Shown here: positions 397-17,285 of the stretch, piece after piece | Position numbering within the stretch: the first letter of the stretch is position 1 | Layout: each line of letters opens with the position of its first letter | NCBI GenBank assembly: GCA_026461645.1 | Contig: JAPJMP010000062.1 | Location: 1 to 18,378 of the forward strand | Source: Burkholderiales bacterium | GTDB taxonomy: Bacteria; Pseudomonadota; Gammaproteobacteria; Burkholderiales; UBA11063 | Direction of reading: 5' to 3' | DNA: 18,378 bases | Translations under genes and position numbers: made by a program | Notes under the pieces: generated by a model | What the model saw: only the letters and a program-made list of their open reading frames with translations | Databases searched by the model: none | What the model was told of the DNA's origin: nothing

Positions 397-539
397 TTTT
401 AATTGAAGGGAATCTTGTATGAGTATTAAAACATAGCAATTAGCGGTAATAGTGCAGGTCACTAGATAAAGTTCCTGTATCGGGTGTGATAGGAGCTATT
501 AAGTACTAAACTTGATAAATGATTAATAAGGAAAAAAAT
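397..539 (+). other. Intergenic gap with possible decayed coding sequence
   Basis: A good ribosome binding site (GAAGGGA, about 405-411) precedes an ATG at 419, but the frame stops after five codons (MSIKT). Reading on in another frame gives IAISGNSAGH, then a stop, and a third frame gives VPVSGVIGAIKY, also ending at a stop. Translatable patches scattered over three frames behind an intact start signal could be a decayed gene, a regulatory leader, or chance. The promoter of the transfer cluster may also be here, but I see no clear hexamers. Confidence 0.25.
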
Positions 540-938
540 ATGAAAAAAAATACTAGAAGCTGGATAAAGGCAATTGCTTTTGTAACATTGTTGTTTGGTG
601 CAAATTATGTATTTGCAAGCGATACCGTGAGTATTCAGGAGCTAAATCAAACTGCAACAGATGTTAAATCCAGTACTAATGCGTTTGCTCAAATAGGTGG
701 TATGTTGGCGATTATTATTGGTGGTTGCATTATTGGGTTTGGTAAGGCTAAGGGTGAGCTGGCCATAGTGCTTGGCAGTATTGCTATTATGGTTGGAGTG
801 GTAGCATTTGCATATGGTACTTACAAGCAGCGTATATCTGAGGGCTTCGACTTTTCACCTAAGAAACAAATAGCTATTAAATTTCAGCCAAAAGCTGATG
901 CTTTTAAATGTGGTTGGAAATCATGCAATCTAATCTAA
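540..938 (+). CDS. Conjugative prepilin, VirB2/TrbC-like
   Basis: A 132-residue prepilin, the presumed subunit of the conjugative pilus. Residues 1-26 form a signal peptide (MKKN start, hydrophobic core, cleavage near VFA|SD). Two hydrophobic helices follow: about 49-67, Gly-rich, ending GGCIIGFG, and 74-92, separated by a short polar loop (KAKGE), the classic VirB2/TrbC hairpin. A roughly 40-residue polar C-terminal tail holds two cysteines and may be removed during maturation, as the tail of RP4 TrbC is. A TraF-type peptidase encoded later in the cluster fits such processing. The ATG at 540 is chosen over 519 because AAGGA lies 7 nt upstream and the protein then begins with a standard signal peptide. 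It is first in the cluster and overlaps the VirB3 gene. The family assignment rests on topology, size and gene order rather than strong residue matches. Confidence 0.72.
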   Translation: MKKNTRSWIKAIAFVTLLFGANYVFASDTVSIQELNQTATDVKSSTNAFAQIGGMLAIIIGGCIIGFGKAKGELAIVLGSIAIMVGVVAFAYGTYKQRISEGFDFSPKKQIAIKFQPKADAFKCGWKSCNLI

Positions 939-1219
939 TCCCTTTACCAAAAGCAATATGGAAGCCAAAGTTAATTGGTGGTATTGAGACTGTTCCTTGG
1001 GTTTTTATCTTTATAACTTCGGCAGTAATTGGTTATTACGCTGATTCATGGTGGAGACTGTTAGGGGTTGCAAATTATGCATTTTTCCACGGGGTATGTG
1101 CGTACTGCAATGCGAAAGACCCATTATTCTTTAAAGGAATATGGCGTTTTTTAGATTATCAGGACTTTTACCCAAATACAGCGATGCATCCATCGACTAA
1201 TAGCATCAAGGAGTATTAA
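923..1219 (+). CDS. Type IV secretion inner-membrane protein VirB3/TrbD-like
   Basis: A 98-residue membrane protein. VirB3/TrbD proteins sit in the inner membrane, are small, and partner with VirB4, whose gene always follows closely, as here (3-nt gap). The N-terminal PLPKAIWKPKLIGGIETVPW resembles the family opening (a short polar lead, then a 'P-K..G' entry to the first membrane segment). One or two hydrophobic stretches lie at about residues 27-41 (VFIFITSAVIGYY) and 48-62. The C-terminal part is aromatic and polar (WRFLDYQDFY). The start at 923 is preferred over 908 because GGA precedes it and it leads directly into the conserved opening. It overlaps the pilin gene by 16 bp, suggesting translational coupling. 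Confidence 0.78.
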   Translation: MQSNLIPLPKAIWKPKLIGGIETVPWVFIFITSAVIGYYADSWWRLLGVANYAFFHGVCAYCNAKDPLFFKGIWRFLDYQDFYPNTAMHPSTNSIKEY

Positions 1220-1222
1220 TAA

Positions 1223-3766
1223 ATGCTTAATTTTATTAAAACTATTGCGCATAACTTTGCTTTTGAGATTAAAAGAGTATCAGTTAATCATCAGTATCAT
1301 CAAAAATCATTGGGGCTGTCTGACAGGTTGCCTTTTGGTAATTTTATAGACCCGGGTATTCTTCATAATAAAGATGAAAGCTTTACAACTATTTTTGCTA
1401 TTAAGCCCATGGACTTAGATGCGTCTACAGAAGATGAAAAGGCTTATGTTAGGGCGGTAATTCATAATGCATTTATTCAATTTGGTAATGGTTGGACTAT
1501 GCACTTTAATATGGATAAGGTTGAAAGTACTGGATATATTCCACAAGAGGACTGCCATTTTACAGATGCTACTACGTATACATTAGATCATGAGCGCAGA
1601 ATTCAATACGACCAAGAGCAAGCTCATTTTGAAGATGAGTATGTAATAGGCTTTACTTACAAACCATCATATGATGCAAAGTATTCTAAATTAGGTAAAT
1701 TCTTCATTACTGGCGAGGAAGTAGATAGTAAGGATAAAGTGAAAGGGCTTGATTTAACCCTTTATCTTAATATGTTCAAGGACAAAATACAGAATTTCAA
1801 GCGAATTTTGGGAGCTTCGCAGTTTCGTATTTATAGTATGAGCGATGATGACATCCTCTCTTACCTAGCATACTGCGTGAATGGGTTACGCCAAGTAATA
1901 AAAGTACCTAGCCCTAATTCTACTGAATTATGCCATGTTGTAAGCGCTAATGATTTACTGGTAGGCAGTTCGCCTAAAATTGGCGATATGCATATTAGAG
2001 CGGTATCAATGGGCGAAAGCTTCCCTTTAAATTCATGGCCGTTGTTGTTATCAGAGCTAAAAGCTTTGCAGTTTGAGTTTACTTGGTCATCAAGGTATAT
2101 ATTCATGAATAGGGCAGAAGAGGAAAAAACCCTTAAAAATATATCAGACTTTCACGAGCAAAGTACTAAAGATGCAGCTAAACATCTATCTGAAAAATAT
2201 GGCACAGGAGAAAGCGGGAAACTTAACCGGGCAGCAGCCAGATATGCCAATGAAACACAGGATGTATTAGAGGAAATAGAGCGTTATGGCAAGCGGGTCG
2301 GTAAATATACTTCAACTATAGTTATTTTTGATAAAAATCCGGCTGATTTGGAAGATAAAGCCAAAGCGGTTGCTGATGTTATCAGCCGTTGCAGTATGCT
2401 TGGCAAGATAGAGCGACATTTATGTGCTGATGCATATTTTTCTGCAATTCCGGGTATTGTTAGAGCCAATATTCGTAAATGGTATATGAAGTCAGATAAT
2501 TTCTCTGATTTATTACCGTCATCATCAATTTGGTCTGGATATAAGAAAAATCCCAGCAAGTACTATGCAAAAAATAATCCAGTCCTATTTTATGCAGCTA
2601 CCAGTGGCAATACCCCCTTTAGAGGCTGTTTACACGTTGAGGATGAAGGACACGCGTTAATAATTGGTGGCCGTGGCTCTAAAGTAATGAATTTTATGGC
2701 AGCACAGCAATGTAGGTATAAGAATAGCAATGTAATTATTTTTGACAGCAATCACTCTACATTGCCATTGGCTTATAGTATTCCAGATAGTGTGCATTAT
2801 GACTTAGGCTATGATGAAAGTATTACTTTTAAACCCTTAGAGCATCTGGATAACCACGAGGACTTTAGTTTTGCAGTCGAATGGTTGACAAAATTATGTG
2901 AAGTCAATGGCTTTATTATAAAACCAAAGCATGTAAATGTGATAACCGAAGCTCTTAAAATAGTAAGGGATGAAGCTAAATCATCTCAGCGGACTATGCA
3001 GTATTTTACATATCATACACAACCGAAAGGTGAGGATATGGCAGATTTAGCCGAACAGTTTAAGCCATATATTTCAACATCCGGCGGATTCCAAGGGCAA
3101 ATTTTCGACTCGAGGGAGGATAAACTTAATCTTAAGTCTTTTACTGTTTTTGAAATGAGCCACCTAATAAGGATGGGTGACACAACTTTAATACCCGCAG
3201 TACTATATTTGTTACATATGGTCGAAAGGCGATTAGATGGCTCGCCTACATCTATTTATATTCACGATGGGTTTACGATATTTAAACATGCTGCTTTTAG
3301 AGGTATTCTGGATGAATGGCTAAGGAAAATTGCAAGTAAAAATGTTCAAATAATAATCGGAGTAGATCAGCCCGCGGATATTATGAAATCAGATATTGCA
3401 GATATTTTTATGCAAACCTGCAAAACCAAAATATTTACAGCAAATTTAAATGCCAAAGGCTCGCAGCGTCCTAGTTATGAGCAGATGGGGCTTAACGAGA
3501 AGCAAATAGAGTTGATAAGTAATGCTTTAGTAAATTGCCAATATTATTTTACCAACCCATTAGGCAGCAGATTAATTGACTTTAATTTTGGTGACGTAGC
3601 TGAAACTTTTCTTACACCACCACAACTGGAAGAAATAAAAATCATCAAACAGCTTAAAGACGAGCATAAAGATTTATTTGGGCTTGAATGGATTAAGCAC
3701 AAAAAATTGTATCCTGAAATAGCTGAATTTTGGTTGACTAAACATGAGGAGCTTACAAATGCCTGA
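1223..3766 (+). CDS. VirB4/TrbE-family protein with degenerate ATPase motifs
   Basis: An 847-residue protein of normal VirB4/TrbE length. VirB4 is normally the cytoplasmic ATPase at the base of the secretion channel, needed for pilus assembly and substrate transfer. The family fold is recognisable: an N-terminal domain; a segment HALIIGGRGSKVMNFMAAQ (from residue 477) where TrbE has its P-loop; then IIFDSNHST, YEQMGLNEKQIELIS and other C-terminal VirB4 signatures. The Walker A consensus GxxxxGK[ST] is missing: the region reads GGRGSKVMN (from residue 482), about three residues short. The Walker B Asp-Glu pair reads IYIHDGF, with Asp682 kept but the catalytic Glu replaced by Gly683. The reading frame is intact, so this is divergence, not a frameshift. 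ATP hydrolysis is therefore doubtful and a structural role is inferred. AAGGAG lies 9 nt before the start. The next gene overlaps its end. Confidence 0.88.
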   Translation: MLNFIKTIAHNFAFEIKRVSVNHQYHQKSLGLSDRLPFGNFIDPGILHNKDESFTTIFAIKPMDLDASTEDEKAYVRAVIHNAFIQFGNGWTMHFNMDKVESTGYIPQEDCHFTDATTYTLDHERRIQYDQEQAHFEDEYVIGFTYKPSYDAKYSKLGKFFITGEEVDSKDKVKGLDLTLYLNMFKDKIQNFKRILGASQFRIYSMSDDDILSYLAYCVNGLRQVIKVPSPNSTELCHVVSANDLLVGSSPKIGDMHIRAVSMGESFPLNSWPLLLSELKALQFEFTWSSRYIFMNRAEEEKTLKNISDFHEQSTKDAAKHLSEKYGTGESGKLNRAAARYANETQDVLEEIERYGKRVGKYTSTIVIFDKNPADLEDKAKAVADVISRCSMLGKIERHLCADAYFSAIPGIVRANIRKWYMKSDNFSDLLPSSSIWSGYKKNPSKYYAKNNPVLFYAATSGNTPFRGCLHVEDEGHALIIGGRGSKVMNFMAAQQCRYKNSNVIIFDSNHSTLPLAYSIPDSVHYDLGYDESITFKPLEHLDNHEDFSFAVEWLTKLCEVNGFIIKPKHVNVITEALKIVRDEAKSSQRTMQYFTYHTQPKGEDMADLAEQFKPYISTSGGFQGQIFDSREDKLNLKSFTVFEMSHLIRMGDTTLIPAVLYLLHMVERRLDGSPTSIYIHDGFTIFKHAAFRGILDEWLRKIASKNVQIIIGVDQPADIMKSDIADIFMQTCKTKIFTANLNAKGSQRPSYEQMGLNEKQIELISNALVNCQYYFTNPLGSRLIDFNFGDVAETFLTPPQLEEIKIIKQLKDEHKDLFGLEWIKHKKLYPEIAEFWLTKHEELTNA

Positions 3767-4421
3767 ATTGAACATTAAAAAACTGGAACAAGCAAATCCC
3801 TATCTAAGTAGCCGTAAGGATTGGAACGAAACAACCGGATTATGGCGCGCAAATGCTGTTATGTGGCGCACCGTCGCTTTTATTATGATGGGGATAACAA
3901 CGTTAGCTGTACTTGGCATGATATATGCAGCCCAATTACCTGACGTAGTGCCACTTGTTTATCGTGAGGATGCATCTGGCGGGTTGATTATGGTTGGTAT
4001 TCCTAATCGGGCTTTAAAACCGGATTCTGGGGCATTAACTAATCAACTTAGTGGATATATCCGATCTATTAGGGAAGTACCATTATCTGAGGGATTACGC
4101 CAACGTAATATCAGGCTGGTAAAAAGGTTATCTACCAGTCAGTTATTTACAAATAATATTGCACCTATGATGCGTGATGAGTATGGCATTGTTGGTATGG
4201 GTGAGCAGTTAATAGATATTAGGTCGGCAATACCTCTCAATAATCATCTCTGGCAAATTGACTGGGAAGAGTATAAGAATAGCAAGCCAGTTGGAAGATT
4301 TAAAGCCAATATTGACTTTACTCTAACTAAGGGAGATTTTAAAGACCCGGAAGCTCGAATGTATAACCCATTTGGTATTGTAGTTAAAGATGTGGTTGTT
4401 AGTCAGGTTATGGGGAGTTAA
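3759..4421 (+). CDS. Type IV secretion protein VirB8/TrbF-like
   Basis: A 220-residue bitopic inner-membrane protein. VirB8/TrbF is a scaffold linking the inner-membrane platform to the periplasmic core. A cytoplasmic N-terminus with the TrbF-type NPYLSSRKDWNETTG stretch (residues about 13-27) is followed by a single membrane helix at about 38-58 (VAFIMMGITTLAVLGMIYAA). The periplasmic NTF2-like domain ends with the typical VirB8 strand pattern (WQIDWEEYKNSKPVG...ANIDFTL, then NPFGIVVKDV). The start is at 3759 because GAGGAG lies 7 nt upstream; the upstream ATG at 3744 lacks a comparable site. It overlaps the VirB4 gene by 8 bp, indicating coupled translation. Fold-family assignment is firm; the exact partner contacts are inferred from relatives. 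Confidence 0.85.
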   Translation: MPELNIKKLEQANPYLSSRKDWNETTGLWRANAVMWRTVAFIMMGITTLAVLGMIYAAQLPDVVPLVYREDASGGLIMVGIPNRALKPDSGALTNQLSGYIRSIREVPLSEGLRQRNIRLVKRLSTSQLFTNNIAPMMRDEYGIVGMGEQLIDIRSAIPLNNHLWQIDWEEYKNSKPVGRFKANIDFTLTKGDFKDPEARMYNPFGIVVKDVVVSQVMGS

Positions 4422-4424
4422 AAC

Positions 4425-5543
4425 ATGATTTCAGAAAAACCTAAATCACAAGGACTAAATAAAACCAGAGTATTACTAACGCTTATACTTTTGGGGTCAT
4501 TATCATTAGGAACAATTCTATATTTTGCTTTGCGTAATGATGAACCTGCAAAGCTAAATAATACGGTTGATAATTCACCTAATTATACAGCTCGCGATGG
4601 TTCTGATTATTCAAACATTTTGGATGCAGCAAAAAGGAATGCATCACAGGCAGTAAATGCTAGCAGTCCTACTGGTCGTATCATGGTTAAAACAGATAGC
4701 TCGTCCACTGTATCTGCTATGAGTCAAAATGAGATGGAAGCCTATCGTCAGGCAATGAGGGCATCCCTTCAAACTAACCAAGTTCAGAATAGAAATACTG
4801 AAATAAGTAGTACTGGGGCTAGTGGCAGCGCAGATAGTAAATCTAGTGATGACCCGTCATTACCGAAAGATGACCAAAATCAGCAAGCAGAAAAACGAGC
4901 TTTTATTAAGGCAAATTCAAAAGCAAATGTAGCAGTTAAAAATAGGATTGCCGAGAATGTTTTAGCTCTGGGTACCAAGATACCTGCGCAGGTAGATCAA
5001 GATATTAATTCTGACTTACCCGGGCAAATCTATGGACATACGACCCGTGACGTGTATGATTCTCGTACAAATTCAGTATTACTTATTCCCGCAGGCTCAA
5101 ATGTTGTTGGCACTTATGATTCTTCTGTGGCATATGGGCAGGAGCGTTTATTAGTAGCTTGGACTAGGGTTAATTTACCTAATGGGCAATTTATAGATTT
5201 ACCGGGCTTTGGTGGTGCTGATGCAAAAGGGGCAGGATTTGGAGATCAAGTTGATAACCATTACGACAAGATTTGGGGTGCAACCATCCTGACTTCAATT
5301 TTGGCAGCCGGAGCGCAACTTGCACAACCGCAACAATCTAATGCGCTACAGTCGCCGGGAGCCGGGCAGATACTTGGGCAAAGTGTTGGCACTCAAATTG
5401 CCCAGACTGGCACAACATTATTAAATAAAAATCTAAATTTACAACCTACATTACACATTAGGCCGGGATTTGAATTTACTATTGAAGTCAATAAAGATAT
5501 GGTATTTGCTAGTGCATATACTGGTAATGCTCGTAAGAATTAG
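4425..5543 (+). CDS. Type IV secretion core protein VirB10/TrbI
   Basis: A 372-residue protein spanning from inner to outer membrane. VirB10/TrbI forms the core complex ring and senses ATPase energy in studied systems. The order is: a short cytoplasmic segment; membrane helix at about residues 15-35 (VLLTLILLGSLSLGTILYFAL); a low-complexity Ser/Asn/Gln-rich periplasmic linker (about 40-155); then the conserved beta-barrel domain. Diagnostic stretches are SDLPGQIYGHTTRDVYDS, LLIPAGSNVVGTYDSSVAYG and QERLLVAWTRVNLPNG. The helical antenna region that forms the outer-membrane pore follows (about 285-305), with the strand RPGFEFTIEVNKDMVF at the end. GGGGAG lies 7 nt upstream of the start. It follows the VirB8 gene by 3 nt, as in IncP trb order in spirit though shuffled. 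Confidence 0.93.
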   Translation: MISEKPKSQGLNKTRVLLTLILLGSLSLGTILYFALRNDEPAKLNNTVDNSPNYTARDGSDYSNILDAAKRNASQAVNASSPTGRIMVKTDSSSTVSAMSQNEMEAYRQAMRASLQTNQVQNRNTEISSTGASGSADSKSSDDPSLPKDDQNQQAEKRAFIKANSKANVAVKNRIAENVLALGTKIPAQVDQDINSDLPGQIYGHTTRDVYDSRTNSVLLIPAGSNVVGTYDSSVAYGQERLLVAWTRVNLPNGQFIDLPGFGGADAKGAGFGDQVDNHYDKIWGATILTSILAAGAQLAQPQQSNALQSPGAGQILGQSVGTQIAQTGTTLLNKNLNLQPTLHIRPGFEFTIEVNKDMVFASAYTGNARKN

Positions 5544-5552
5544 GGGGCTATT

Positions 5553-5846
5553 ATGAATAGAATTAAGTTTATGCAAGGATATTGGGAGTTATCACCTTCC
5601 TGTAATAGTTTTAAGGAATATGATACGCAGGTTCTTGTTAGCCGGATGTTTTATACGTATGTTTTGGGGATGGATAATGAAGTGAAAATGTTGCATCCAT
5701 ATCAGATAGCAGAGGCCATTACAGATAAAAAGGCAGTTGAAGCTTATAAAAAAGCTTTATTTGATTTGGTACATGATTTATCGGCTAGTGATTGGGACAA
5801 AGTTTGCAAGCATTTAAACCTTAAGCATGAGAACAGCCATGTTTAA
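5553..5846 (+). CDS. Unknown 97-residue cytoplasmic protein
   Basis: I do not recognise this protein. It has no signal peptide or membrane helix, is mixed acidic/basic, and appears mostly helical in its C-terminal half (YQIAEAITDKKAVEAYKKAL and onward). A run of G (AGGGGG) lies just upstream and would serve as the ribosome binding site. It lies between the VirB10 and lytic transglycosylase genes and overlaps the latter, so it is translated with the transfer cluster. A cytosolic accessory role in transfer is possible only by position. Confidence 0.6.
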   Translation: MNRIKFMQGYWELSPSCNSFKEYDTQVLVSRMFYTYVLGMDNEVKMLHPYQIAEAITDKKAVEAYKKALFDLVHDLSASDWDKVCKHLNLKHENSHV

Positions 5847-6597
5847 GAAAATTATCTTTTTGAGCTTAGTGGCTGGTTACTGTTTTGCGGATAACGAGGT
5901 TTTATATGGCACACCTGATAATCCGCAGATAAACGGCGCTAGTTATGATGTACACCAAGTATATATTGAGCCGAATCAAGGTTATCAGCCCAAGATTGCA
6001 TCTAGGGAAGATAGCAGCGCGCCAAGCCTACAACAAAACCGGGTAATCATTAAGACACATACGACGCAAGCACCACAGGCAAAAGTTAATTTCAAATCTG
6101 ATAGTTGGGCAACTGATGCCAAGGTAGAAAAGGCTTTGAAAAAAGCTGCAAGTGATGGAAAACTAAGTTATGTGTTAGAGCAAGCAAATAAGTCTAATGT
6201 TCCAGTGTCCGTTGCGGTTGTGCCAATTGTGGAGAGTAATTATAACAAAAATGCTGTTTCTCCGAAGGGAGCCGGGGGAGCATGGCAGTTAATGCCCGGT
6301 ACAGCAAATGATTATGGATTAAGTTCAAGTGACAGGTTTGATTTTAATGTATCAACCCAAGCTGCAATACAGCTTTTAAATGACTTACATAATGAATTTG
6401 GCAATTGGGCATTAGCATTTGCTGCCTACAACTGTGGCAGTACTTGCGTTAAAAATGCATTAAAGAAAAATCCTAATGCAACCGATATTGATGATCTTAG
6501 CTTACCTCATGAGACAAAAGATTATGTACATAAAATTGTTCAGCTAAATCAGGTTATTGCTGGACTTGATAAAGAAACAAAAACGTCTATTAATTAA
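5839..6597 (+). CDS. Secreted lytic transglycosylase, MltD-like SLT domain (VirB1 role)
   Basis: A 252-residue periplasmic muramidase that would cleave peptidoglycan to let the secretion channel through the wall. Residues 1-18 form a signal peptide (MFKKIIFLSL... CFA|DN). A low-complexity Gln-rich linker runs to about 80. The SLT domain follows: catalytic Glu132 in PIVESNYN, the GGAWQLMPGTANDYG motif, and AFAAYNCGS with the usual Ala-Tyr-Asn-x-Gly. The wording around these motifs is closer to MltD-type enzymes than to classic VirB1. The start at 5839 gives a clean signal peptide; 5827 (MRTAM) is possible and overlaps the preceding gene further. Cys in the active-site region (NCGSTCVK) could form a disulphide. 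Its place between VirB10 and VirB9 genes supports the transfer role. Confidence 0.9.
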   Translation: MFKKIIFLSLVAGYCFADNEVLYGTPDNPQINGASYDVHQVYIEPNQGYQPKIASREDSSAPSLQQNRVIIKTHTTQAPQAKVNFKSDSWATDAKVEKALKKAASDGKLSYVLEQANKSNVPVSVAVVPIVESNYNKNAVSPKGAGGAWQLMPGTANDYGLSSSDRFDFNVSTQAAIQLLNDLHNEFGNWALAFAAYNCGSTCVKNALKKNPNATDIDDLSLPHETKDYVHKIVQLNQVIAGLDKETKTSIN

Positions 6598-6607
6598 GGA
6601 GTTTCAA

Positions 6608-7558
6608 TTGAAAAATTTACTTAACAAGCTATTACTGGGATTAGTTGCAGCCACTGTTATTGCATGTTCCAGTACGAATCGACCAAGCAGTACAGCCTAT
6701 AGCTCTACAACACAGGTAATTAAAGAACCTGCGCCAATTGTTATAGTTGATGATAAAAAGAGTAAAAACTATAAATTAGTTTATGGCAATGATAGGGCTG
6801 TAGAAGCTGCATTTAATGCATATGCGAAGACTGGTAAGGCAGACAATATTATTACCAAAGGCTTTACTAAGTTTGCATATTCTTCAATGCAGCAGCCAAT
6901 AATAAACTGTATGCCTTTTCAGCAAACAGTAATTACTTTAGAGGCTGGCGAAAAATTTACCTCAATTACATCGGGCGACCCATCTAATTTAAGTTATCTG
7001 GTTGCAGTATCCGGGGCTTCTACGGGGGTTGAAACTCAGCAGGTTTTAGTAAAACCAGCATCACCTAAAATGAGTACCAACCTCATCATAACTACAGATA
7101 AGCGAATCTATAACATTCTAATTGTAGTGGGTGGCCCAAAAGACAAAATTACTCGCAATGTGTCTTTCTGGTATCCAGATGATATGCTAAATAAAGTTAA
7201 TGATAATATCGAAAAACAAAATGATATAACAGCCAATGCTGAAAAGACTCCGCAGCTTAATTTGGCAGACGCTAACTTTAATTACAAAATAACTACTGAT
7301 GATGACCCATCGTGGACACCTGTTAGAGCATTTGATGATGGTAAGCGTACATGGATAGAGTTCCCGAATGGTGTTGATAGCAAGAACCTGCCTACTGTGT
7401 TAATTCAGAGTGATTCAGGCAATTTAGTTAAGTATAACGTTTCTTATTATTCTCCTTATTATGTAATTCAAGGGGTGTTTAGCCGTGCCAAATTGGTTGC
7501 TGGTGTTGGCGGTAATCAAGTATCAGTTGATGTTTATAATAAAAACTTTAAGCGTTAA
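6608..7558 (+). CDS. VirB9/TrbG-like core protein, predicted lipoprotein
   Basis: A 316-residue outer-membrane-associated core component. VirB9/TrbG contacts VirB10 and, classically, the lipoprotein VirB7. I choose a TTG start at 6608 because AAGGAG sits 6 nt before it, while the ATG at 6557 lies inside the previous gene with no such site. From that start the protein opens as a lipoprotein signal: basic residues, a hydrophobic stretch and the lipobox VIAC, with lipidated Cys20. The N-terminal TrbG domain (YKLVYGNDRAVEAAF; TVITLEAGEKFTSITSGDPS) and the C-terminal VirB9 domain (FDDGKRTWIEFP; NYKITTDDDPSWTPVRAF; VSYYSPYYVIQGVF) are clear. Having its own lipid anchor is unusual for VirB9 and could replace VirB7. 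Confidence 0.88.
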   Translation: MKNLLNKLLLGLVAATVIACSSTNRPSSTAYSSTTQVIKEPAPIVIVDDKKSKNYKLVYGNDRAVEAAFNAYAKTGKADNIITKGFTKFAYSSMQQPIINCMPFQQTVITLEAGEKFTSITSGDPSNLSYLVAVSGASTGVETQQVLVKPASPKMSTNLIITTDKRIYNILIVVGGPKDKITRNVSFWYPDDMLNKVNDNIEKQNDITANAEKTPQLNLADANFNYKITTDDDPSWTPVRAFDDGKRTWIEFPNGVDSKNLPTVLIQSDSGNLVKYNVSYYSPYYVIQGVFSRAKLVAGVGGNQVSVDVYNKNFKR

Positions 7559-7981: not shown

Positions 7982-8155
7982 ATGGATAAATTTGAAAAAA
8001 GAAAGCTTATTAATGAGCTGGCCGACAGATACCTTGAAAATGCTCGTAGTTACAGTCAGGTCAATAATGAAATTAGAGAACAATTAAAGAAAATTGGGGT
8101 ATCTATATGCACACTATGGTTTATTGCACGTTTGAGAAATAAGGAGGAGCAATGA
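7982..8155 (+). CDS. Unknown 57-residue protein
   Basis: A short but well-signalled gene: AGGAGA lies just upstream of the ATG, and its stop overlaps the next start (ATGA at 8152-8155). The protein is highly charged and helical at the N-terminus (MDKFEKRKLINELADRYLEN) and ends with a hydrophobic patch (VSICTLWFIARL) and KEEQ. The pattern SYSQVNNEIREQLKKIGVS could be a helix-turn-helix, so a small DNA-binding or protein-binding adaptor is possible. No family is recognised. The position, between a secreted unknown and the VirB5 gene inside the transfer cluster, suggests it is expressed with them. Confidence 0.6.
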   Translation: MDKFEKRKLINELADRYLENARSYSQVNNEIREQLKKIGVSICTLWFIARLRNKEEQ

Positions 8156-8718
8156 AAAAATTATTTATTCCGTTATTTATCACTTACATGTCGGCTTTTG
8201 CAGTTGTACCAACTATTGACGTAAATCAGGAAGCACAGGATACAACAACTACTCTTAGTTATGCTGCGCAAATACCCGGCTACCTTAATCAAATGAATTC
8301 GGCAATGAATGCAGCCCAGCAAGTAACTGCTCTTAAAGGGCTGCAACAAGTGTCTGGTGCAGGCCAGACATTATGCCAGCTATGTGATGCCAAGCAATTG
8401 AACACTATGCAAAATTATGTAGACCAGGTTAATGGTGATCTTTGCAGTCAATTTTCTTATGCAATGTCAAATATTACTGGTAGTAATAAAGCTATTACAA
8501 GTTTACAAGGTGTAATGGCTGCCTTTGCTACAAACCCTAAGGCAGCAGCGCTGGCACTACAACAGGCCTCAGTTGCAACTCAATCTGCTACTCAAAATAC
8601 CTTGGCACAGATTCAAATGCTCGAGGCTCAAAAATCCCAAAAGCAATTAGCTGAGGATAGGTATGCTAAAGCAGCTCAAAGTAGTATGCAGGGCAGTGTT
8701 GCTGGTTCTAAGTGGTGA
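8152..8718 (+). CDS. VirB5/TrbJ-like minor pilus protein
   Basis: A 188-residue secreted helical protein. Residues 1-17 form a signal peptide (MKKLFIPLFITYMSAFA|VV). The mature part is Ala/Gln-rich and predicted to be long helices, with the middle carrying QTLCQLCDAKQ (a CxxC) and a third Cys in GDLCSQF. The C-terminal helix (LAQIQMLEAQKSQKQLAEDRYAK) resembles the end of TrbJ/VirB5 proteins. VirB5 sits at the pilus tip or base and assists recipient contact. Gene order directly before the VirB6/TrbL gene, as trbJ-K-L in IncP, supports the call. It is translationally coupled to the 57-residue gene through ATGA. Sequence identity in this family is low, so the call leans on topology and order. 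Confidence 0.7.
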   Translation: MKKLFIPLFITYMSAFAVVPTIDVNQEAQDTTTTLSYAAQIPGYLNQMNSAMNAAQQVTALKGLQQVSGAGQTLCQLCDAKQLNTMQNYVDQVNGDLCSQFSYAMSNITGSNKAITSLQGVMAAFATNPKAAALALQQASVATQSATQNTLAQIQMLEAQKSQKQLAEDRYAKAAQSSMQGSVAGSKW

Positions 8719-8722
8719 AATT

Positions 8723-9895
8723 ATGTCTAAACTAAAGTTTTTTTTAATCCTAATGGCTATAGTCGGGGTAAGTTATGCAGGAACTACGTGTAGCATGGTA
8801 CCGGGAGGTACATTAGACCAGTTTCAGCAGAATTTTTATAATTTATCGCGTAACTTTACAACCAATATTCTACCTAAAGTTCAGAAAATTTATTGGATGC
8901 TATGGGCGTTATGGGGAGGGTATGAGCTTGCGTTTGAAAAAATTGCCGGGCTTCGTATAGATAAATTATTAATCTGGTGGTTTGTAAGGCTCATAACAGC
9001 AACTATCATCTATCACATATTTTTGAATCCAAGTTTTTACATTGGAGTTATTAAGTTTGGGGCAAGTTTTGGTGCTTTAATGGGCGGTTTTACAATTGAC
9101 CCAAGTAGCGCATCGTTATTAGGCAATTTTACCCCTTCGGCAATAATGGGAATTAATAGCTGTGTAGCAACTGCGGTAGATAATGCTTCAAAAACGCTAG
9201 GTTCGTTTGAGGTTTTGCGACCTTTACAGTTATTAATTTTACAGATGTTATTCTATGTAATTACTACGGTTGCTGCTTTATATGTTTTATATTTATCAAT
9301 AAGAATGTGGCTATGTTTATTTGCCGGGTTCGTTAATACTATGTTTGCGGGTAGTCGTTGGACTATTGGTTGGTGGCAAGCTTATTTAGCTACAGTTATG
9401 AAGTATGCGCTTGAATTAATGTTTACCGCAGCATTATTTGGTACCGTGTATCAGCAAATGGATATGGTTGTAGCTAAGTTGAGCGCTGCTAGTGCTGATA
9501 TTTTAGCCAATTACGGTGATTACCTTGTGGCTCTGGCCAATACGGCCATTCTTACAGTATTGATGTTTATAATCCCTCAAAAATTAGCCAGCGACTTAGG
9601 AAGTGGTTTTGGCTCTACTGTAATTGATATTGGTGGTGAAATGGTTAAGGGGGCACAACGGATTATTTCATCTTCTGGTGGCGGGGGCGGTGGAGGAGGT
9701 AATAATACCCCAATGCCTATGCCACAAAATCCAAGTGGCGGAGGGGCTACAGGTGGGGGCGGTGTAGGTGGTGGTTCCGGTGGCGCTAATACCACGGTTA
9801 AATCCTCGGATTTGGCACAGACAGCAACTAAGGCTGCTGGAAACGCAGCAACAGGTCAAAATTGGAAAACAGCAGTTGATGCTGTCAAAAAGTAA
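8723..9895 (+). CDS. Polytopic inner-membrane protein VirB6/TrbL
   Basis: A 390-residue multi-span membrane protein of the inner-membrane platform through which substrates pass. Residues 1-17 are a signal-like helix, followed by a short periplasmic loop with one Cys and several membrane helices: about 55-70 (YWMLWALWGGYEL), 80-100, 104-125, 167-200, 198-218 and 270-287. Conserved VirB6-style features include the Trp-rich first span and the RMWLCLFAGFVNTMFAG stretch. After about residue 318 comes a Gly-run low-complexity tail (up to eight consecutive Gly, then PMPMPQNPSGGG), a trait also seen in TrbL proteins. The start at 8723 follows the VirB5 stop by 4 nt; an upstream ATG at 8663 lies inside that gene. 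Confidence 0.87.
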   Translation: MSKLKFFLILMAIVGVSYAGTTCSMVPGGTLDQFQQNFYNLSRNFTTNILPKVQKIYWMLWALWGGYELAFEKIAGLRIDKLLIWWFVRLITATIIYHIFLNPSFYIGVIKFGASFGALMGGFTIDPSSASLLGNFTPSAIMGINSCVATAVDNASKTLGSFEVLRPLQLLILQMLFYVITTVAALYVLYLSIRMWLCLFAGFVNTMFAGSRWTIGWWQAYLATVMKYALELMFTAALFGTVYQQMDMVVAKLSAASADILANYGDYLVALANTAILTVLMFIIPQKLASDLGSGFGSTVIDIGGEMVKGAQRIISSSGGGGGGGGNNTPMPMPQNPSGGGATGGGGVGGGSGGANTTVKSSDLAQTATKAAGNAATGQNWKTAVDAVKK

Positions 9896-10272: not shown

Positions 10273-10644
10273 ATGCTAAAAAGTATTGTTTTAATTGGTA
10301 ATGCAAAAGAAGTACCAAATAGCGTCAAAGGTAATGAGGGCAAAGAGTTTGTGACGCTTGATCTCGCAGTAACTATTAAGTCCAAAGGTAAAGAGTCTAC
10401 AGATTGGATAGAGTTAATTTGTAATGGATTTTGGGCAGATTTTGCCAAAAAATATATTAAGGCTGGCAGTAGGTTATTTATTGATGGTACGCCTAAATTT
10501 GGTGCGTATCTGGCTAAGGATGGAACCGCCAAACCAGCAACCAAAGTATATGTTAGGGAAATGAGGTTACTCAACTGGATAGAAGGCAAAGATAATGAGC
10601 CTATTGATGTTGATACTAACGTTGATGAGGTACATAATGGCTAA
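10273..10644 (+). CDS. ssb: Single-stranded DNA-binding protein (plasmid SSB)
   Basis: A 123-residue OB-fold protein. The order of elements follows bacterial SSB: N-terminal strand LKSIVLIGNAKEVPNS, middle strands (FVTLDLAVTIKSK; TDWIELICNGFWADFAKKYI), then IKAGSRLFIDGTPKFGAYLA and VYVREMRLL. It would coat single-stranded plasmid DNA during transfer or replication, in donor or recipient. The C-terminal tail is acidic (NEPIDVDTNVDEV) but lacks the DDDIPF-like tip that recruits host repair proteins. IncP plasmids also carry ssb, but next to trfA; here it lies inside the mating-pair genes. AGGAG lies 7 nt upstream. The end overlaps the VirB11 gene by 8 bp. Confidence 0.85.
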   Translation: MLKSIVLIGNAKEVPNSVKGNEGKEFVTLDLAVTIKSKGKESTDWIELICNGFWADFAKKYIKAGSRLFIDGTPKFGAYLAKDGTAKPATKVYVREMRLLNWIEGKDNEPIDVDTNVDEVHNG

Positions 10645-12187
10645 GAAAGAAATGGATAGCGCCCAAATATTACGTCATCTTGAAGATGATATGGGCGACC
10701 TGTTGGGGTTATTTGATATTCCAGATGTTTACGAAATTATGCTAAATGCTTTTAGGCGGGCTGATGGCATGTATGAAGGGCATATTTGGTATGAACAGGC
10801 TGGCAAGGGGATGGTAAGGCTTATTAATACCGAAGAAGTAGGCTTAAGGAATTATCCAATACCAAACATTGGTGATAAGGTTTTTGTTAAGTATCTGGAC
10901 AAAGACTCAGAGCGTATAATATTAAATCATCATGTCATACCAGCTAACAACGAAGCTAGGTACAACAAGGAAGTTTGCGAAGCCGTAGGGATGCTTTTAA
11001 AGCATTCCTTGAATATCGACAGCGAAAACATTTTTTTGGAGCAGGAAGAGCATTACAGGTTGTGTGAATTTACAGATTACATATCAGAAGCCTGTTTTTA
11101 TGGTCATAAAGAACCTATACCAGAGGAAGATTTTAAAGATTTAAGTATTCTGATTGATAAGGTAAATAAGAAGTTATCACGCCTGATACATATTTACTTT
11201 AGGGTTGAGATTGTTACGATTACCAAAGAAAATATTATTAGCTACAGGCAGCCTAAACACTTGGTAGTTAAAGAGTTTGTCAAGATGACAGAGTCCAAGG
11301 CTCATCAAATAATGAATATATTGGCGGCGGCTAACAGTATGCATTTTCATGCTAAGGAGCCAAGATTAGAATGTGCAATACCATTTTATCACCACAGGTT
11401 TACCGGGCAAATCCCTCCATTTGTAAAATTTCCGTCTTTTACTATTCGTAAGCATAGCTCAAAAGTATTTACGCTTGATGAGTATGTTGCAGCTGGCATT
11501 ATGCCACAGGTTGTTGCTGATACGATAAGGGAACTAATGCAGCGTGGTTGTAATATTTTAATAGCTGGTGGGGTTGGTTCAGGCAAGACGACATTACTTA
11601 ATGCTTTACTGTGGGAGTTAGCGTGGATACACCCAGAAGCTTTAAACCGAGTCGGAATTATTGAGGATACACCGGAAGTACAAAACCCAATAGATAATGC
11701 TTTTGAATTTGCACAAACTAATGAGGTAGGTATGGACGATGCTTTAAAAAGTGGGCAAAGAAGTCGCCCCAATTCAATAATTGTTGGGGAAGTCCGGGGT
11801 AAAGAGGGTTATACATTATTTAAAGCTATGCTAACTGGGCAAAAAAACTGTATGGGTACTATACATGCCAATGGTGCGATTGAGGCTGCTTTTAGATTCG
11901 AGCAATGTATTAAAGAACATCAGGACTGTAGAGATATGCCTGTACAGAGAGATCAAATATCAATGGCACTTAATGCTGTAATATCAATTCAAAGAACTAC
12001 GGTTAGGATAACAAATAAAGCAGGGCATAATGAAAATGTCGTACGGCGCAAAGTTACCGCACTCATGGAAATAACGGGATATGACCCTAAGCATAATCTT
12101 TATGAATGGATTCCTTACTATCTTGATAAAGAAGCTATATTAGAACAGGCTACGCCAGCTATAGAAAAATTAAGCAAATATCAATGA
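10637..12187 (+). CDS. VirB11/TrbB secretion ATPase with N-terminal insertion
   Basis: A 516-residue hexameric traffic ATPase that switches the channel between pilus assembly and DNA transfer. The ATPase half is intact: Walker A GGVGSGKTT (Lys317), Asp box IIEDTPE, Walker B-like SIIVGEVRG (Glu385) and His box GTIHANG (His410). TrbB signatures FTIRKHSSKVFTLDEYVAAG precede the P-loop. VirB11/TrbB proteins are usually about 320-350 residues; here the opening LLGLFDIPDVYEIMLNA matches the TrbB N-terminus, but about 145 extra residues (roughly 70-215) separate it from the rest of the N-terminal domain. GAGG sits 6 nt before the chosen ATG; the ATG at 10595 lies inside ssb. The stop overlaps the TraF start (ATGA). 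Confidence 0.93.
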   Translation: MAKKEMDSAQILRHLEDDMGDLLGLFDIPDVYEIMLNAFRRADGMYEGHIWYEQAGKGMVRLINTEEVGLRNYPIPNIGDKVFVKYLDKDSERIILNHHVIPANNEARYNKEVCEAVGMLLKHSLNIDSENIFLEQEEHYRLCEFTDYISEACFYGHKEPIPEEDFKDLSILIDKVNKKLSRLIHIYFRVEIVTITKENIISYRQPKHLVVKEFVKMTESKAHQIMNILAAANSMHFHAKEPRLECAIPFYHHRFTGQIPPFVKFPSFTIRKHSSKVFTLDEYVAAGIMPQVVADTIRELMQRGCNILIAGGVGSGKTTLLNALLWELAWIHPEALNRVGIIEDTPEVQNPIDNAFEFAQTNEVGMDDALKSGQRSRPNSIIVGEVRGKEGYTLFKAMLTGQKNCMGTIHANGAIEAAFRFEQCIKEHQDCRDMPVQRDQISMALNAVISIQRTTVRITNKAGHNENVVRRKVTALMEITGYDPKHNLYEWIPYYLDKEAILEQATPAIEKLSKYQ

Positions 12188-12735
12188 TTAAATTTATAAA
12201 GTATGTAATTTTGCCATTATGGTTTACGTATATGATGGTTTTTATGCTTGAAAACATTGTGTACTATAACCCGAGTGTTTCAGAACCACTGGGATATTAT
12301 CTGGCTCTCCCGGGCTTAAAATACCAAAAAGGCGATGTTGTATTAATTTGTATCATAGATGATAAATATAAATTGGTTTTTAATCAGCTTGGGTTAATTG
12401 ATGATGGAAGTTGTGATAATGGGCTTCCTCATATATTAAAAACGATTGCAGCCAGTAAAGGAGACGTTATCCGGGTTGCTGAGTCTGGTATTTTTATAAA
12501 TGATAAATACCAGCGCAATAGCGCCCAATTCCAAGAGGGTAATGGAGTTAATTTGTACCCTTTGCCTGTTGGATGGTCACATAAATTAAAAGCTGATGAA
12601 TTCTTTTTGCTTGGGAATAGCTTGCATTCAGTCGATTCCAGATATTTCGGAATTGTGACCCGGAAGAACGTTTACCGCCGGGCTATTTTTATTTTCAGTA
12701 ACAACAAAAACCTTAGTGTCAGGGAGGCATTATGA
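12184..12735 (+). CDS. traF: TraF-type S26 peptidase (pilin maturation)
   Basis: A 183-residue membrane-anchored signal peptidase-like enzyme. In RP4, TraF trims and cyclises the TrbC pilin. Here a single N-terminal membrane helix (about 7-27) precedes the box YNPSVSEPLGYY with predicted nucleophile Ser33. The general base is Lys86 in HILKTIAASKGDVI, and the family box D is FFLLGNSLHSVDSRYFGIV. The S-x-P-x-G-Y-Y wording is that of TraF rather than the host LepB (which has SM at this spot). Two Cys (56 and 77) occur between the catalytic residues. The gene is coupled by ATGA at both ends, to VirB11 before and to the next gene after. Confidence 0.87.
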   Translation: MIKFIKYVILPLWFTYMMVFMLENIVYYNPSVSEPLGYYLALPGLKYQKGDVVLICIIDDKYKLVFNQLGLIDDGSCDNGLPHILKTIAASKGDVIRVAESGIFINDKYQRNSAQFQEGNGVNLYPLPVGWSHKLKADEFFLLGNSLHSVDSRYFGIVTRKNVYRRAIFIFSNNKNLSVREAL

Positions 12736-13491: not shown

Positions 13492-15684
13492 ATGCTATCA
13501 AATTCTAAATTACCGCCGTTTAAATGGGCAATTGTCTATATCAATAGATTTATTCCGCTATTGCTATTGTTTGCTATCTTCATGCAGTTATTAGTGCCTG
13601 CTTTTGGTGAGGGCGGTAAGCATATAAGAAACTTAGTTAGTTATTTGTTAGTGGTTTTAGTCAGTTTTGGGATTAAAGAAATACTTTATCAAGGCAGGGA
13701 ACAGATTTATAAACTGGGTGAGAGCCGATTTTTTCTATATATAGCTATATTCTATTTTTCATGGTTATTAAATATATTTTTCCTCCATGATTTTAATGTT
13801 AGGCCTGCTGACATAGGGGTTAAAGCAATATTGGATAATGTTGTCAGTTATAGCGTAACTCAATACATGGATTTAGGGCTACTGGTTTTTAGTCCTGCAT
13901 TGGCTACCATTTGGTATATCTGCGATGTAGAATTAGACCGTGCTAAACGCCGGGATATGGACATCAAGGCGTTACTTATTAATTCTGATGATATAAAGCA
14001 TTGGAAACAGCCTCTTGTTGAGATTGCATCATACTTCTTTATCTTCGTTATAAGCTTTTACTATATACCTCTAGGCATTTTTTGCCTTGTGAGTTTCTTA
14101 ATTTTAAGTTTAATGCCTAAGTTATATCGCCAATGGGCAAATTTAGCTATTGGTATAGTATTACTGGCATTAGGAATGAAATTTGATCTAAATGTTATAA
14201 ATTCTGCGTATGCATGGCTCAGTTTTGGGAAGCATAACGGCTGGTTAATTATGCTAAAAAAAGAGTTTATGTTGGCTCCGATAGGTCATGGCATTACATT
14301 AGTCGCTTCATTTTACTATTTAATAGCCGCATTTGCAGAAATCAGGCTGTCACAATTAGATTTAAGAAATATGGACAAAGTATCTGCCAAGCAAGCTATT
14401 AATAAATCTCATGATGGGGAGATTGAGTTTGGCTTTAGGGAAGATACAGGGCGACCAATCTACTTAACTGATGATGAATATAACTATCATGCCTTATATT
14501 TGGGTACAACCGGAGCAGGGAAAACAACCGCTATCCTAAACAATATTGAACATTGTGCAAAGTTAGGGATACCCTGTATCGAACTTGATGGTAAGGGTAG
14601 TCCAGACTTGCCGGAAAAGATTAAGCAAATAGCGGATAAGTATGGTCGTACATTTAAACTATTTACGTTAAAACCTGAATCAATAAGAGGCGAACTAGCT
14701 AAATGCCTGGCTGCTTATCATCCATTCTCAACGGGAACATTTACCGAATTTAAAAATCGCATTATGAGCCTGTTTAGTGCTGCGGAAGGGCGAGGGCAGC
14801 AGCATTATGTAATTGGTGAGGAGAATGCAATTAATACTGTTCTAGCAGTACTACAGAAGTCTGGTAAAGATTTTGATTTATATACGCTGTATGAAGTTAT
14901 TCAAGATATAGATATATTAAAAGCATTGGCTAACGAAACAGGTGACAGACTATTAATGAATGAAGTCGAGCTACTTGATGATGAGAAGATTGGAGATGTT
15001 GGAAAAATCCTTAAGCTATTCATTTTAAGCAGCTTCGGGCACCTATTTAATACTAAAGCATGTTCGGAGGTGATTAAGCTACAGGAAAGTATCATAAATA
15101 ATGAAATAGTGTTATTTATGTTCGATAGCTCAACGTATAAGGAAGATACTAAGAAAATAGCCAAGCTTGTTATTAATGATATTAATAGTGCTTTTTCTAC
15201 TATGATGGACAGCACCGGGGTGATCAAGAAGTGCTATTGCATTTTTGATGAGTTTGCCAGTTATGCAAGTAGTAATTTAAGCGATACCCTGACATTGCAC
15301 AGGTCAAATGGTATGCACGCTATCGTAGGCACTCAGGGATTAGAAACAGTATCTCTGGCCAACTCGGAAAGTGCTAGGGTAGCTGAGGAGCTGGTAGCAT
15401 GTTGTGGTACATTTTTAATATTACAGTTGCAACATGAGAAAGATATTGAAAGAGTGGCTAATCTGATGGGCACTCGCGAAACATATGAAGTTACTCGACA
15501 AATAGACATATCGGAAGGGCAGGGTGCAACAGGAATGGGAAGCTCTAAAGTTGTGAATGAATATGTTGTACACCCATCTGAAATAAGGAAACTAAAAGGG
15601 CGTGATGGCTCAGGGATTTTGTACCGTAAATCATTTGGACAAGACCCTTTTAAAATCATAATTAGACGGATTAAATTTGAATAA
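13492..15684 (+). CDS. VirD4/TraG-like coupling ATPase with polytopic membrane domain
   Basis: A 730-residue coupling protein that would recruit the relaxase-DNA complex and pump it into the channel. The ATPase domain is intact: Walker A GTTGAGKTT (Lys344), a following IELDGKGSPDLPEK stretch, Walker B CIFDEFASYA (Asp586-Glu587) and the motif HAIVGTQGLE. The first 320 residues hold about seven or eight hydrophobic segments (near 12-36, 47-65, 79-98, 124-143, 178-209, 218-232, 263-285). VirD4, TraD and TrwB usually have two. The start at 13492 has GGAG about 9 nt upstream. It is the last gene of the transfer cluster; a rep promoter follows in the short gap. Confidence 0.92.
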   Translation: MLSNSKLPPFKWAIVYINRFIPLLLLFAIFMQLLVPAFGEGGKHIRNLVSYLLVVLVSFGIKEILYQGREQIYKLGESRFFLYIAIFYFSWLLNIFFLHDFNVRPADIGVKAILDNVVSYSVTQYMDLGLLVFSPALATIWYICDVELDRAKRRDMDIKALLINSDDIKHWKQPLVEIASYFFIFVISFYYIPLGIFCLVSFLILSLMPKLYRQWANLAIGIVLLALGMKFDLNVINSAYAWLSFGKHNGWLIMLKKEFMLAPIGHGITLVASFYYLIAAFAEIRLSQLDLRNMDKVSAKQAINKSHDGEIEFGFREDTGRPIYLTDDEYNYHALYLGTTGAGKTTAILNNIEHCAKLGIPCIELDGKGSPDLPEKIKQIADKYGRTFKLFTLKPESIRGELAKCLAAYHPFSTGTFTEFKNRIMSLFSAAEGRGQQHYVIGEENAINTVLAVLQKSGKDFDLYTLYEVIQDIDILKALANETGDRLLMNEVELLDDEKIGDVGKILKLFILSSFGHLFNTKACSEVIKLQESIINNEIVLFMFDSSTYKEDTKKIAKLVINDINSAFSTMMDSTGVIKKCYCIFDEFASYASSNLSDTLTLHRSNGMHAIVGTQGLETVSLANSESARVAEELVACCGTFLILQLQHEKDIERVANLMGTRETYEVTRQIDISEGQGATGMGSSKVVNEYVVHPSEIRKLKGRDGSGILYRKSFGQDPFKIIIRRIKFE

Positions 15685-15729: not shown

Positions 15730-16788
15730 ATGCAAGGGTATGAGAATATGGAAATAACGCAATTAGTAAGCGAATTAAATAAGCTCAATGATGAGGATTT
15801 TCGGCTTATTATTAAGAGTTTGGATGTTGCACAACTACGAGAAGCAATGCCTTTAATTGCTATTGAAAAAGGTTTGAGAGTAGTACAGGAATTAAACCTT
15901 AGAAAAGAAACTAAGAGCTTAGAAATAGCCAATAACATACCTGTACAATTACAACTTGCTTTAACTTCAGATGAGATTGCCCCAGCTCCTAATTTATTGC
16001 TCAGGAGCAACCTATTTTCGGCTAGTAAAACACATGGGGCTCATGACGACCCAGTAAGAGATTTTGTGATAACAACTTATGGAGAAAAAGCCGAAGTATC
16101 ATTAACTGCATTCAGGCAATTTAATCAATTAGATCTTGATTTATTATTAGAATTAATTAAGTTTCAACAAGAACAAAATATACCGCTTGTTAAAGTAAGC
16201 TTATATGAAATAGTAAAGAATACAAAAGGCAGTGGAGAAGGCAAAGCTCAGTATACTCAAATTAAGGAACAGTTAGAGCTATTACAGAATGCTAGTATTA
16301 AAATTAAATATGGACGCTATAGCTTTGTTGGCGGTATATTAAGCAATGTCTACTTTGATGACGTAGAGCATGTTTATGTAATGCAATTTAATCAACATCT
16401 ACAGCCATTATTTTCAAATACAAACTGGACAGGAATAGATACAAATATTCGTAAACAATTAAAGACAAATCTAGCAAAATGGTTACATGGGTTTTATAGT
16501 ACACATTTAAATAGTCATCTACCAATTAAGTTAGAAACACTATATAAATTAAGTGGTGCTACTGATAAAGATATGGCTCGTTGGATTCGTGTAAGGGTAG
16601 CAAATGCATTAAGTAACTTACAAGAGGTTTTTGCTAATAATGGAAAAAGGTTTACATACCAAATTGAGGATGGTAATTTGTATGTTAATAAATCTCAAAC
16701 ATTAAGTCAAAATCGTAGTATTAAAAATAAAATAGTAGCTGGCAGCAGAAAGAAAAAACCAGTACAACCACAATTAAAACTGAGCTAA
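15730..16788 (+). CDS. Plasmid replication initiator, TrfA family
   Basis: A 352-residue initiator that would bind the iterons downstream and load host replication proteins. TrfA-family traits visible: APAPNLLLRSNLFSASK near the start of the domain (residue about 86), ITTYGEKAEVSLTAFRQFNQ with LDLDLLLELIKF, YEIVKNTKGSGEGKAQYTQI, then NTNWTGIDTNIRKQL, LAKWLHGFYSTHL and PIKLETLYKLSGA. The fold is two winged helices. The N-terminal 80 residues are polar and helical and not recognised. GGAGG is 5 nt upstream of the ATG; an internal Met (MEITQ, codon 8) is less well placed. Its stop codon lies in the loop of the following terminator. Confidence 0.87.
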   Translation: MQGYENMEITQLVSELNKLNDEDFRLIIKSLDVAQLREAMPLIAIEKGLRVVQELNLRKETKSLEIANNIPVQLQLALTSDEIAPAPNLLLRSNLFSASKTHGAHDDPVRDFVITTYGEKAEVSLTAFRQFNQLDLDLLLELIKFQQEQNIPLVKVSLYEIVKNTKGSGEGKAQYTQIKEQLELLQNASIKIKYGRYSFVGGILSNVYFDDVEHVYVMQFNQHLQPLFSNTNWTGIDTNIRKQLKTNLAKWLHGFYSTHLNSHLPIKLETLYKLSGATDKDMARWIRVRVANALSNLQEVFANNGKRFTYQIEDGNLYVNKSQTLSQNRSIKNKIVAGSRKKKPVQPQLKLS

Positions 16789-16804: not shown

Positions 16805-16842
16805 ATATCTTACTTTAAGTTATTGATTTGCGATGATTTCGA

Positions 16843-16945
16843 TACTGTAAATAAGGCGTTTTTATACTGTAAATAAAGCTTTGTGGTACTGTAAATAAGG
16901 CTCCACTCTACTGTAAATAAGGCGTTTTTATACTGTAAATAAGGC
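16843..16945 (+). repeat. Five 22-bp-period iterons (oriV)
   Basis: The 15-bp unit TACTGTAAATAAGGC starts at 16843, 16865, 16887, 16909 and 16931, an exact 22-bp period. Unit 2 differs by one base (AAAGC instead of AAGGC). Spacers are 7 bp: units 1-2 and 4-5 share the spacer GTTTTTA, so a 37-bp block is repeated 66 bp away. Two-turn helical spacing places initiator molecules on one face of DNA, as expected for an iteron-type origin next to its Rep gene. The AT-rich stretch after the last unit could melt. No DnaA box consensus (TTATNCACA) was found by eye. Confidence 0.92.
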
Positions 16946-17285
16946 TTTCCGTAAGCTGCACAACATTTTGTTATATATAAGTATTTTGCCAAATTATTAA
17001 GGCTATAATCTTTAGATAATCTCTTTTAATCCAAAAAGTATAGGTCTAAGGCTACGCCCGACCTATAAAGTTATTCGCTATGCTCATAATTAAAATTAAA
17101 GATTATGCTAAAGCATAATATAAAAATAATTCGCTACTGCTCATGATAATTGTAATGCCCTTACAGGGCTCAATATAGCACCGTTAACGTTATAATCAAG
17201 CCTACCTAATACAAATCCCTTAACTATATCAAAATAATGCTTCTACGATAAGCACATGCTTAAATAAAAAAGGAATGGTTAATAG
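16946..17285. repeat. Non-coding region with small palindromes right of oriV
   Basis: No gene is supported here. Seen: an AT-rich run (about 16960-17035) that may be the origin's melting region; a stem ATAGGTC...GACCTAT (17040-17046 and 17060-17066); an 8-bp-arm palindrome ATTATGCT-AA-AGCATAAT (17102-17119); a GCCC-TTACA-GGGC stem (17157-17169); and CGTTAACG (17182-17189). A degenerate direct repeat beginning TTCGCTA-TGCTCAT occurs at about 17074-17092 and 17130-17151. Roles in replication control or protein binding are possible but unproved. Confidence 0.5.

Follow-up and report, generated by a model that had tools for sequence, protein, structure and literature searches.

The window and its VirB4 gene

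The window analysed here (18,378 bases, the entire contig C209 of a metagenome-assembled genome (MAG), G000, which is 88.75% complete and comprises 1.52 Mb in 242 contigs) carries a type IV secretion system (T4SS) on a single strand, in the order virB2-virB3-virB4-virB8-virB10-orf-virB1-virB9-orf-(virB5)-virB6-orf-ssb-virB11-S26 peptidase-orf-virD4. The gene under study is virB4, which normally encodes a core motor of such DNA- and protein-exporting machines; its product here keeps the fold of a VirB4 ATPase without its motifs. As the cluster is trailed by a Rep3 initiator and 22-bp iterons, we read the contig as a putative plasmid; it is not closed, since its ends do not overlap and one open reading frame runs past the contig end. 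The virB4 gene and its two altered motifs lie as follows.

1223..3766, + strand: virB4/trbE gene, 847 residues, full-length VirB4 fold without ATPase motifs (open reading frame, NCBIfam TrbE, TrwK alignment, AlphaFold model)
2666..2692, + strand: GGRGSKVMN at the former Walker A loop, lacking three residues and the conserved Lys (alignments)
3257..3271, + strand: former Walker B, Y-I-H-D-G, conserved in the clade (alignments, model; Asp to His and Glu to Asp in the preferred register)

The original prediction for this locus, made from the DNA letters, had described a full-length, in-frame TrbE/VirB4 homologue, and such it is: the frame has no internal stop, the top NCBIfam model is TrbE (E 4.5e-145, residues 23–829 aligned), and full-length sequence and fold homology, together with the position between virB3 and virB8, place the protein in the VirB4/TrbE family, at a score (484.6 bits) under the curated TrbE cut-off of 1020. 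The likeness to TrbE of the Trb-type conjugation systems extends to the neighbours, which match TrbB, TrbF, TrbG, TrbI and TrbL under curated cut-offs; the differences lie in the score of the window protein and in its lack of Walker A and B.

Intact relatives read GxxxxGKSxxxN where the window protein has its nine residues 482–490, so the loop is three residues short and without GK[ST], as predicted; alignments, motif search and structural model agree on this. The pattern G....GK[ST] has zero occurrences over all 847 residues, also with the spacer one residue shorter or longer, and a P-loop at another place in the protein was rejected on this count. An AlphaFold model built from 43 sequences (predicted local distance difference test, pLDDT, 84.9; predicted template modelling score, pTM, 0.79), which superseded an initial model of 15 rows and pLDDT 66.5, leads from strand 478–481 to helix 486–496 via four residues, 482–485.

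For Walker B, the profile-profile alignment, the multiple alignments and a modelled strand end at H681 all set H681-D682 (3263–3268) on the Asp-Glu pair, giving Asp to His, Glu to Asp and then Gly; a pairwise phmmer alignment to TrwK disagrees, opening a one-residue gap and setting D682-G683 there. Judged by sequence, the pair is lost in either register. The predicted loss of Asp-Glu therefore stands, while the Asp-Gly register proposed with it is probably one residue off. Both signatures of the VirB4 ATPases, Walker A GxxxxGK[ST] and Walker B Asp-Glu, are thus absent from the window protein, whereas TrwK/VirB4 of R388 (7o41, 8rtb, 8rtd) has both intact. Two further candidate signs of a dead site were discarded: a shifted Gln motif (GVxQ), because the intact L002 and L031 read ASTQ and ASHQ, and a missing Pfam P-loop_TraG match, which is not a clean marker (the dead-clade proteins P0099–P0101 still match).

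Conservation and recurrence of the loss

A search of 5.8 billion proteins returned 19 relatives at E <= 1e-30 among 7,996 scored candidates. By alignment columns, Lys and Glu are both absent from 15 of these and both present in four. The window's own pattern, a loop three residues short with IHDG or the variants LHDG, INDG, IYDG and IHNG, recurs in 14 of the 15 (P0001–P0012, P0015, P0016), the remaining dead relative, P0013, being of another type; the proposed check on conservation in relatives came out in favour of the loss. Thirteen of the 14, the window and contig C179 of genome G009 form one clade with support 100/100, P0015, a 564-residue piece, having been left out of the tree. P0015 is labelled as coming from a Rickettsiaceae MAG, which may reflect movement of such elements between classes or a binning error in the MAG.

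The same loss is carried by proteins from other sources at 43–98% identity, and on this ground a sequencing error or frameshift was rejected; neither finding that might have overturned the prediction, an error here or a P-loop elsewhere, materialised. Across 14 aligned rows the loop is variable (483–489, identity 0.416), conservation is strong in its flanks and around Walker B (671–692, 0.797), G482, N490, F491, Q495, Q496, Y679 and G683 are invariant, and degradation is no greater in the ATPase half than in the N-terminal one (0.61 vs 0.563). Between the window and contig C198 of G009, differences at the three codon positions of the ATPase domain are 0.274, 0.167 and 0.553. Because the site region is conserved, the ATPase half undegraded and the codon differences so distributed, we conclude that the window virB4 is under purifying selection for something besides canonical ATP hydrolysis. 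A decaying or artefactual gene, to which the motif loss itself and a possibly split VirB11 in G009 (contigs C198 and C149) might point, is disfavoured for the clade and highly improbable in view of the same loss in other sources, the lack of stops, the selection and the surrounding T4SS genes.

Against genome contigs, the bare window protein gave no match, and the alignment A1 used as query gave three loci, presumably those of G009 (two) and G001; none of the viral contigs matched, and the records obtained from the plasmid collection, out of the best 5,000, all stayed below 60% identity. At E <= 1e-190 the sole match of A1 was the window's own genome, among 369 genomes of the class and 398 of the phylum, and at E <= 1e-60 it matched 39 of 399 genomes of the order, each set being a sample from a larger group and scoring being limited to two candidates per genome. 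The relatives sampled include 49 further families of the order, presumably Burkholderiales as GTDB defines it.

Similar losses occur in two other clades. Clade B (contig C80 of G002, and P0013) reads GNGDQTK with Asp-Glu changed to Ala-Gln, and has as its sister group the intact C150, from the host genome, and P0014. Clade C (contig C2 of G022, and P0097–P0102) reads GPTG-GDV, GPSG-GLEV and similar, with Lys-Asp or Tyr-Asp for Asp-Glu, and groups with the intact G021:C133 and with P0103. The last keeps the Lys, but in GKD instead of GKS/T, and has Asn-Glu in Walker B; judging from these residues it might be a half-way state of clade C, within which P0101 has lost the Lys and kept the Glu, and P0102 stops at the site and is absent from the tree.

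In a tree of 43 rows with the motif columns removed, the dead state takes three changes (5–95% range 3–3 over 200 bootstrap trees), and a single origin was recovered in 0/200. The rows were chosen from 90 aligned, with P0103 scored intact; P0001, P0007, P0015 and P0102 are among the rows not chosen. A first tree had dropped L001 (kept as WIN), L004, L007, L015, L017 and P0015. The same counts could in principle arise through loss plus regain, or through recombination between elements; that both motifs were regained seems improbable. Among the retrieved loci (84 open reading frames, 49 unique genomic VirB4, one without the domain), Lys and Glu are both present in 43 of the 48 with the domain and neither is present in five, all of which fall among the 19 from the window's genus (0/29 of the others). 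L090 and L091, at first taken for VirB4 with odd motifs, proved intact on closer look.

Nucleotide might still be bound and used via a non-canonical site, as CagE, whose N-terminal half was active as an ATPase although it has no known motif (PMC4643968), would illustrate. The former Walker B region is indeed highly conserved (the 25 residues from 671 rank 34 of 823), and where the Glu would stand the window's clade retains an Asp, replaced by Asn in P0002. The phosphate loop is reduced to four residues in the model, however, its basic residues are not conserved, and in clades B and C the site disappeared by different routes, which makes this reading very improbable.

Partner ATPases and the surrounding cluster

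The remaining features of the window are listed here.

519..938, + strand: virB2/trbC pilin gene (Pfam TrbC, E 3.7e-05, under the gathering score)
908..1219, + strand: virB3/trbD gene (Pfam VirB3, E 1.2e-04, slightly under the gathering score)
3744..4421, + strand: virB8/trbF gene (Pfam/NCBIfam matches)
4425..5543, + strand: virB10/trbI gene (Pfam/NCBIfam matches)
5827..6597, + strand: virB1-like lytic transglycosylase gene (Pfam SLT, E 2.4e-23)
6557..7558, + strand: virB9/trbG gene (Pfam/NCBIfam matches)
8152..8718, + strand: 188-residue gene at the virB5 position (position and conservation only; no Pfam match)
8663..9895, + strand: virB6/trbL gene (Pfam/NCBIfam matches)
10595..12187, + strand: virB11/trbB ATPase gene with extended N-terminus (Walker A GGVGSGKTT and Walker B IIVGEVR intact; nearest relative P0020, 99%)
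12184..12735, + strand: S26 (TraF-like) peptidase gene (Pfam match)
13492..15684, + strand: virD4/traD-like coupling protein gene (Walker A GTTGAGKTT and Walker B Asp-Glu, FDEF, intact)
15730..16788, + strand: Rep3 plasmid replication initiator gene (Pfam match)
16842..16948, no strand: 22-bp iterons, plasmid replication origin by position (repeat analysis)

Homologues of VirB2, 3, 6, 8, 9, 10, 11 and VirD4 in one cluster make this a P-type (Trb/VirB) T4SS, an assignment in which VirB2 and VirB3 score slightly under Pfam gathering scores and VirB5 is placed by position. Protein domain scans found no relaxase on the unclosed contig; PF03432 gave none in G000, the other MOB families not having been searched genome-wide. 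An inverted repeat that follows the iterons and precedes the last open reading frame (17582–17639; 22-nt arms, 91% complementary, 14-nt loop) is a candidate origin of transfer or terminator. A weak relaxase match (E 0.0245) lies at G022:C2:65980-66081, within a frame of 1857 residues on the contig of that genome's dead-VirB4 cluster.

Dead VirB4 stands amid other T4SS genes in the window, in G009 (C198 and C179), in G002:C80 and in G022:C2. The window's VirB11 and VirD4 motifs are intact, as had been predicted, and VirB11 with an intact Walker A shares the contig with dead VirB4 in the window, C179 and G022:C2; from contigs of equal size, P0010, P0011 and P0016 are presumably linked to the VirB11 proteins P0028, P0024 and P0040, and gene order suggests that C149 continues the C198 element and C73 the C80 element. 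VirD4 has kept the Lys of its P-loop and its Asp-Glu pair in the window, C149, C179, C73 and G022; strict GxxxxGK[ST] is found only in the window and C149, the others reading APTGGGKG (C179 and G002:C73) and STTGTGKS (G022). GKG is usual for VirD4/TraG. The coupling proteins are of two types, TraD-like without a T4SS-DNA_transf match (window; C149, L113 3090–5285) and of T4SS-DNA_transf type (C179, L034 1520–3385; C73, L114 7278–9179; G022, L109 1028–3172).

A VirB11 with about 200 extra residues ahead of the TrbB profile match is common in the group, also where VirB4 is intact; frames of 480 and 505 residues in G012:C9 and G003:C70, contigs that carry an intact VirB4, led us to reject this extension as a compensating change. 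Very large N6-methylase/SNF2-helicase proteins lie near T4SS clusters (L037 2594–7960, 1788 residues; L034 5910–10640, at least 1577 residues), and an ankyrin-repeat protein of 468 residues near virD4 in G002:C73 (L114 9584–10990) is possibly a cargo or host-interaction protein.

VirB4 as a putative scaffold

In published structures VirB4 is a dodecamer of six central and six outside subunits, which hold VirB3 and VirB8, touch VirB10 and provide the docking ring for VirB11; the pKM101 inner-membrane complex was not seen when VirB4 was absent, and active-site mutants of normal VirB4 reportedly retain some assembly functions (PMC2653234, PMC4643968). Given these structural roles and the functions kept by the mutants, we regard the dead VirB4s as probable scaffolds. 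We hold it probable that the window protein is a VirB4 pseudo-ATPase, a scaffold of the T4SS inner-membrane complex without the usual ATP binding or hydrolysis, much as the original prediction of a structural pseudo-ATPase proposed; a loss common to a deep clade, with similar losses in two others, supports it. The retained fold, the short loop without Lys, the replaced Walker B acids, the purifying selection, the three losses on the tree and the key residues kept by VirB11 and VirD4 in the same clusters come from sequence and model, and from them we infer the absence of ATP binding and hydrolysis, the ring assembly and the energy source. VirB4 would hold VirB3, VirB8 and VirB10 and form the ring for VirB11 docking, the remodelled site perhaps locking the subunit in one state, and VirB11, docked beneath, would together with VirD4 power pilin handling and substrate passage. 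More broadly, we lean slightly towards the existence of T4SSs without any VirB4 ATPase: within a single genus of Burkholderiales and the plasmids of that genus, VirB4 would on at least three occasions have turned into a scaffold that is conserved and whose remodelled dead site has a specific sequence (for the window's clade, YIHDG), all the power coming from VirB11 and VirD4.

Several observations weigh against the scaffold reading. The VirB11 of G009 (C198/C149) consists of two frames (203 and 314 residues; L032 102–713, L113 111–1055) on two contigs whose ends have no exact overlap; the gene may be split or carry an insertion, or the assembly may break there, and the arrangement would fit a damaged system. 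As a Walker A mutation of normal VirB4 affects substrate translocation (PMC4643968), a machine still able to transfer must have some change that compensates, and none was found: the VirB11 extension, which had seemed a candidate, accompanies intact VirB4 as well. No relaxase was found in the window, which leaves transfer by its system conjectural. The same mutation spares pilus biogenesis (PMC4643968), which, with no relaxase found on the contig, would suit a pilus- or contact-making machine that has abandoned substrate transport via VirB4-dependent steps. VirD4, however, is not required for pili (PMC12857230) and yet keeps its Lys and Asp-Glu in the five clusters or presumed continuations in which it was seen, and the window contig and G009:C179 carry plasmid Rep genes, so that such a machine seems quite improbable.

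Help in trans weighs likewise against a scaffold without any VirB4 motor. The window cluster has one VirB4, and the unclosed plasmid may carry a second on its missing part; the genome search proposed for a second copy found two intact P-type VirB4 in G000 (C150 and C71, 44% and 33% identical), both located outside the window contig amid genes of their own clusters, and an F-type TraC on C175. G009 has one intact P-type copy, C43. The dead subunit might accordingly take the outside, structural positions of a hexamer of dimers, with an intact VirB4 from elsewhere in the cell at the central, catalytic ones; the two kinds of subunit have different partners in R388 (PMC9259494), and RvhB4-II occurs beside intact RvhB4-I (PMC2653234). 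We consider such a mixed ring unlikely. The predicted second VirB4 exists in G000 but is not general: no intact VirB4 was found in G022 (99% complete; other matches to VirB4 models at E >= 5e-4), and none of P-type in G002 (87% complete, 6% contamination), which has TraC-like proteins only, although with about 50 and 320 contigs, respectively, a plasmid could be absent from either assembly. Moreover, the intact copies of G000 and G009 fall in different clades, so there is no constant partner, and in their clusters these copies are accompanied by virB3 and virB8 genes of their own. The F-type TraC of G000 and G002, at first taken as motif-less by a pattern that missed AASGSGKS (G000:C175) and ADSGAGKS (G002:C25, the single G002 TraC checked), are intact, both with DEAW.

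The closest precedent for a scaffolding VirB4 is RvhB4-II (VirB4b) of the Rickettsiales rvh T4SS, correctly described in the original prediction as a degenerate extra copy beside an intact one: its substitutions in the nucleoside triphosphate-binding cleft are kept over the lineage, and it has been proposed as a channel stabiliser rather than a power source (PMC2653234). RvhB4-II, however, has an intact copy in the genome and lies apart from other vir genes (PMC2653234), whereas the window VirB4 is plasmid-borne and the sole VirB4 of a contiguous, unclosed cluster, with a loop three residues short and a loss that arose three times on the tree, in what we take for another order. The intact copy within the same system that marks RvhB4-II is not present in the window cluster as far as this unclosed plasmid extends; the tree was drawn without Rickettsiales VirB4. 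In open-access papers, searches aimed at a motif-less VirB4 turned up no report of one as the sole VirB4 of its system.

Systems with a motor-dead sole VirB4 would open the scaffold role to study apart from the motor role, the two being split there by a natural experiment, and annotation by family models alone would label such proteins as ATPases. Natural controls with similar gene order and intact VirB4 are at hand in G021:C133 for G022:C2 and in G000:C150 for G002:C80.
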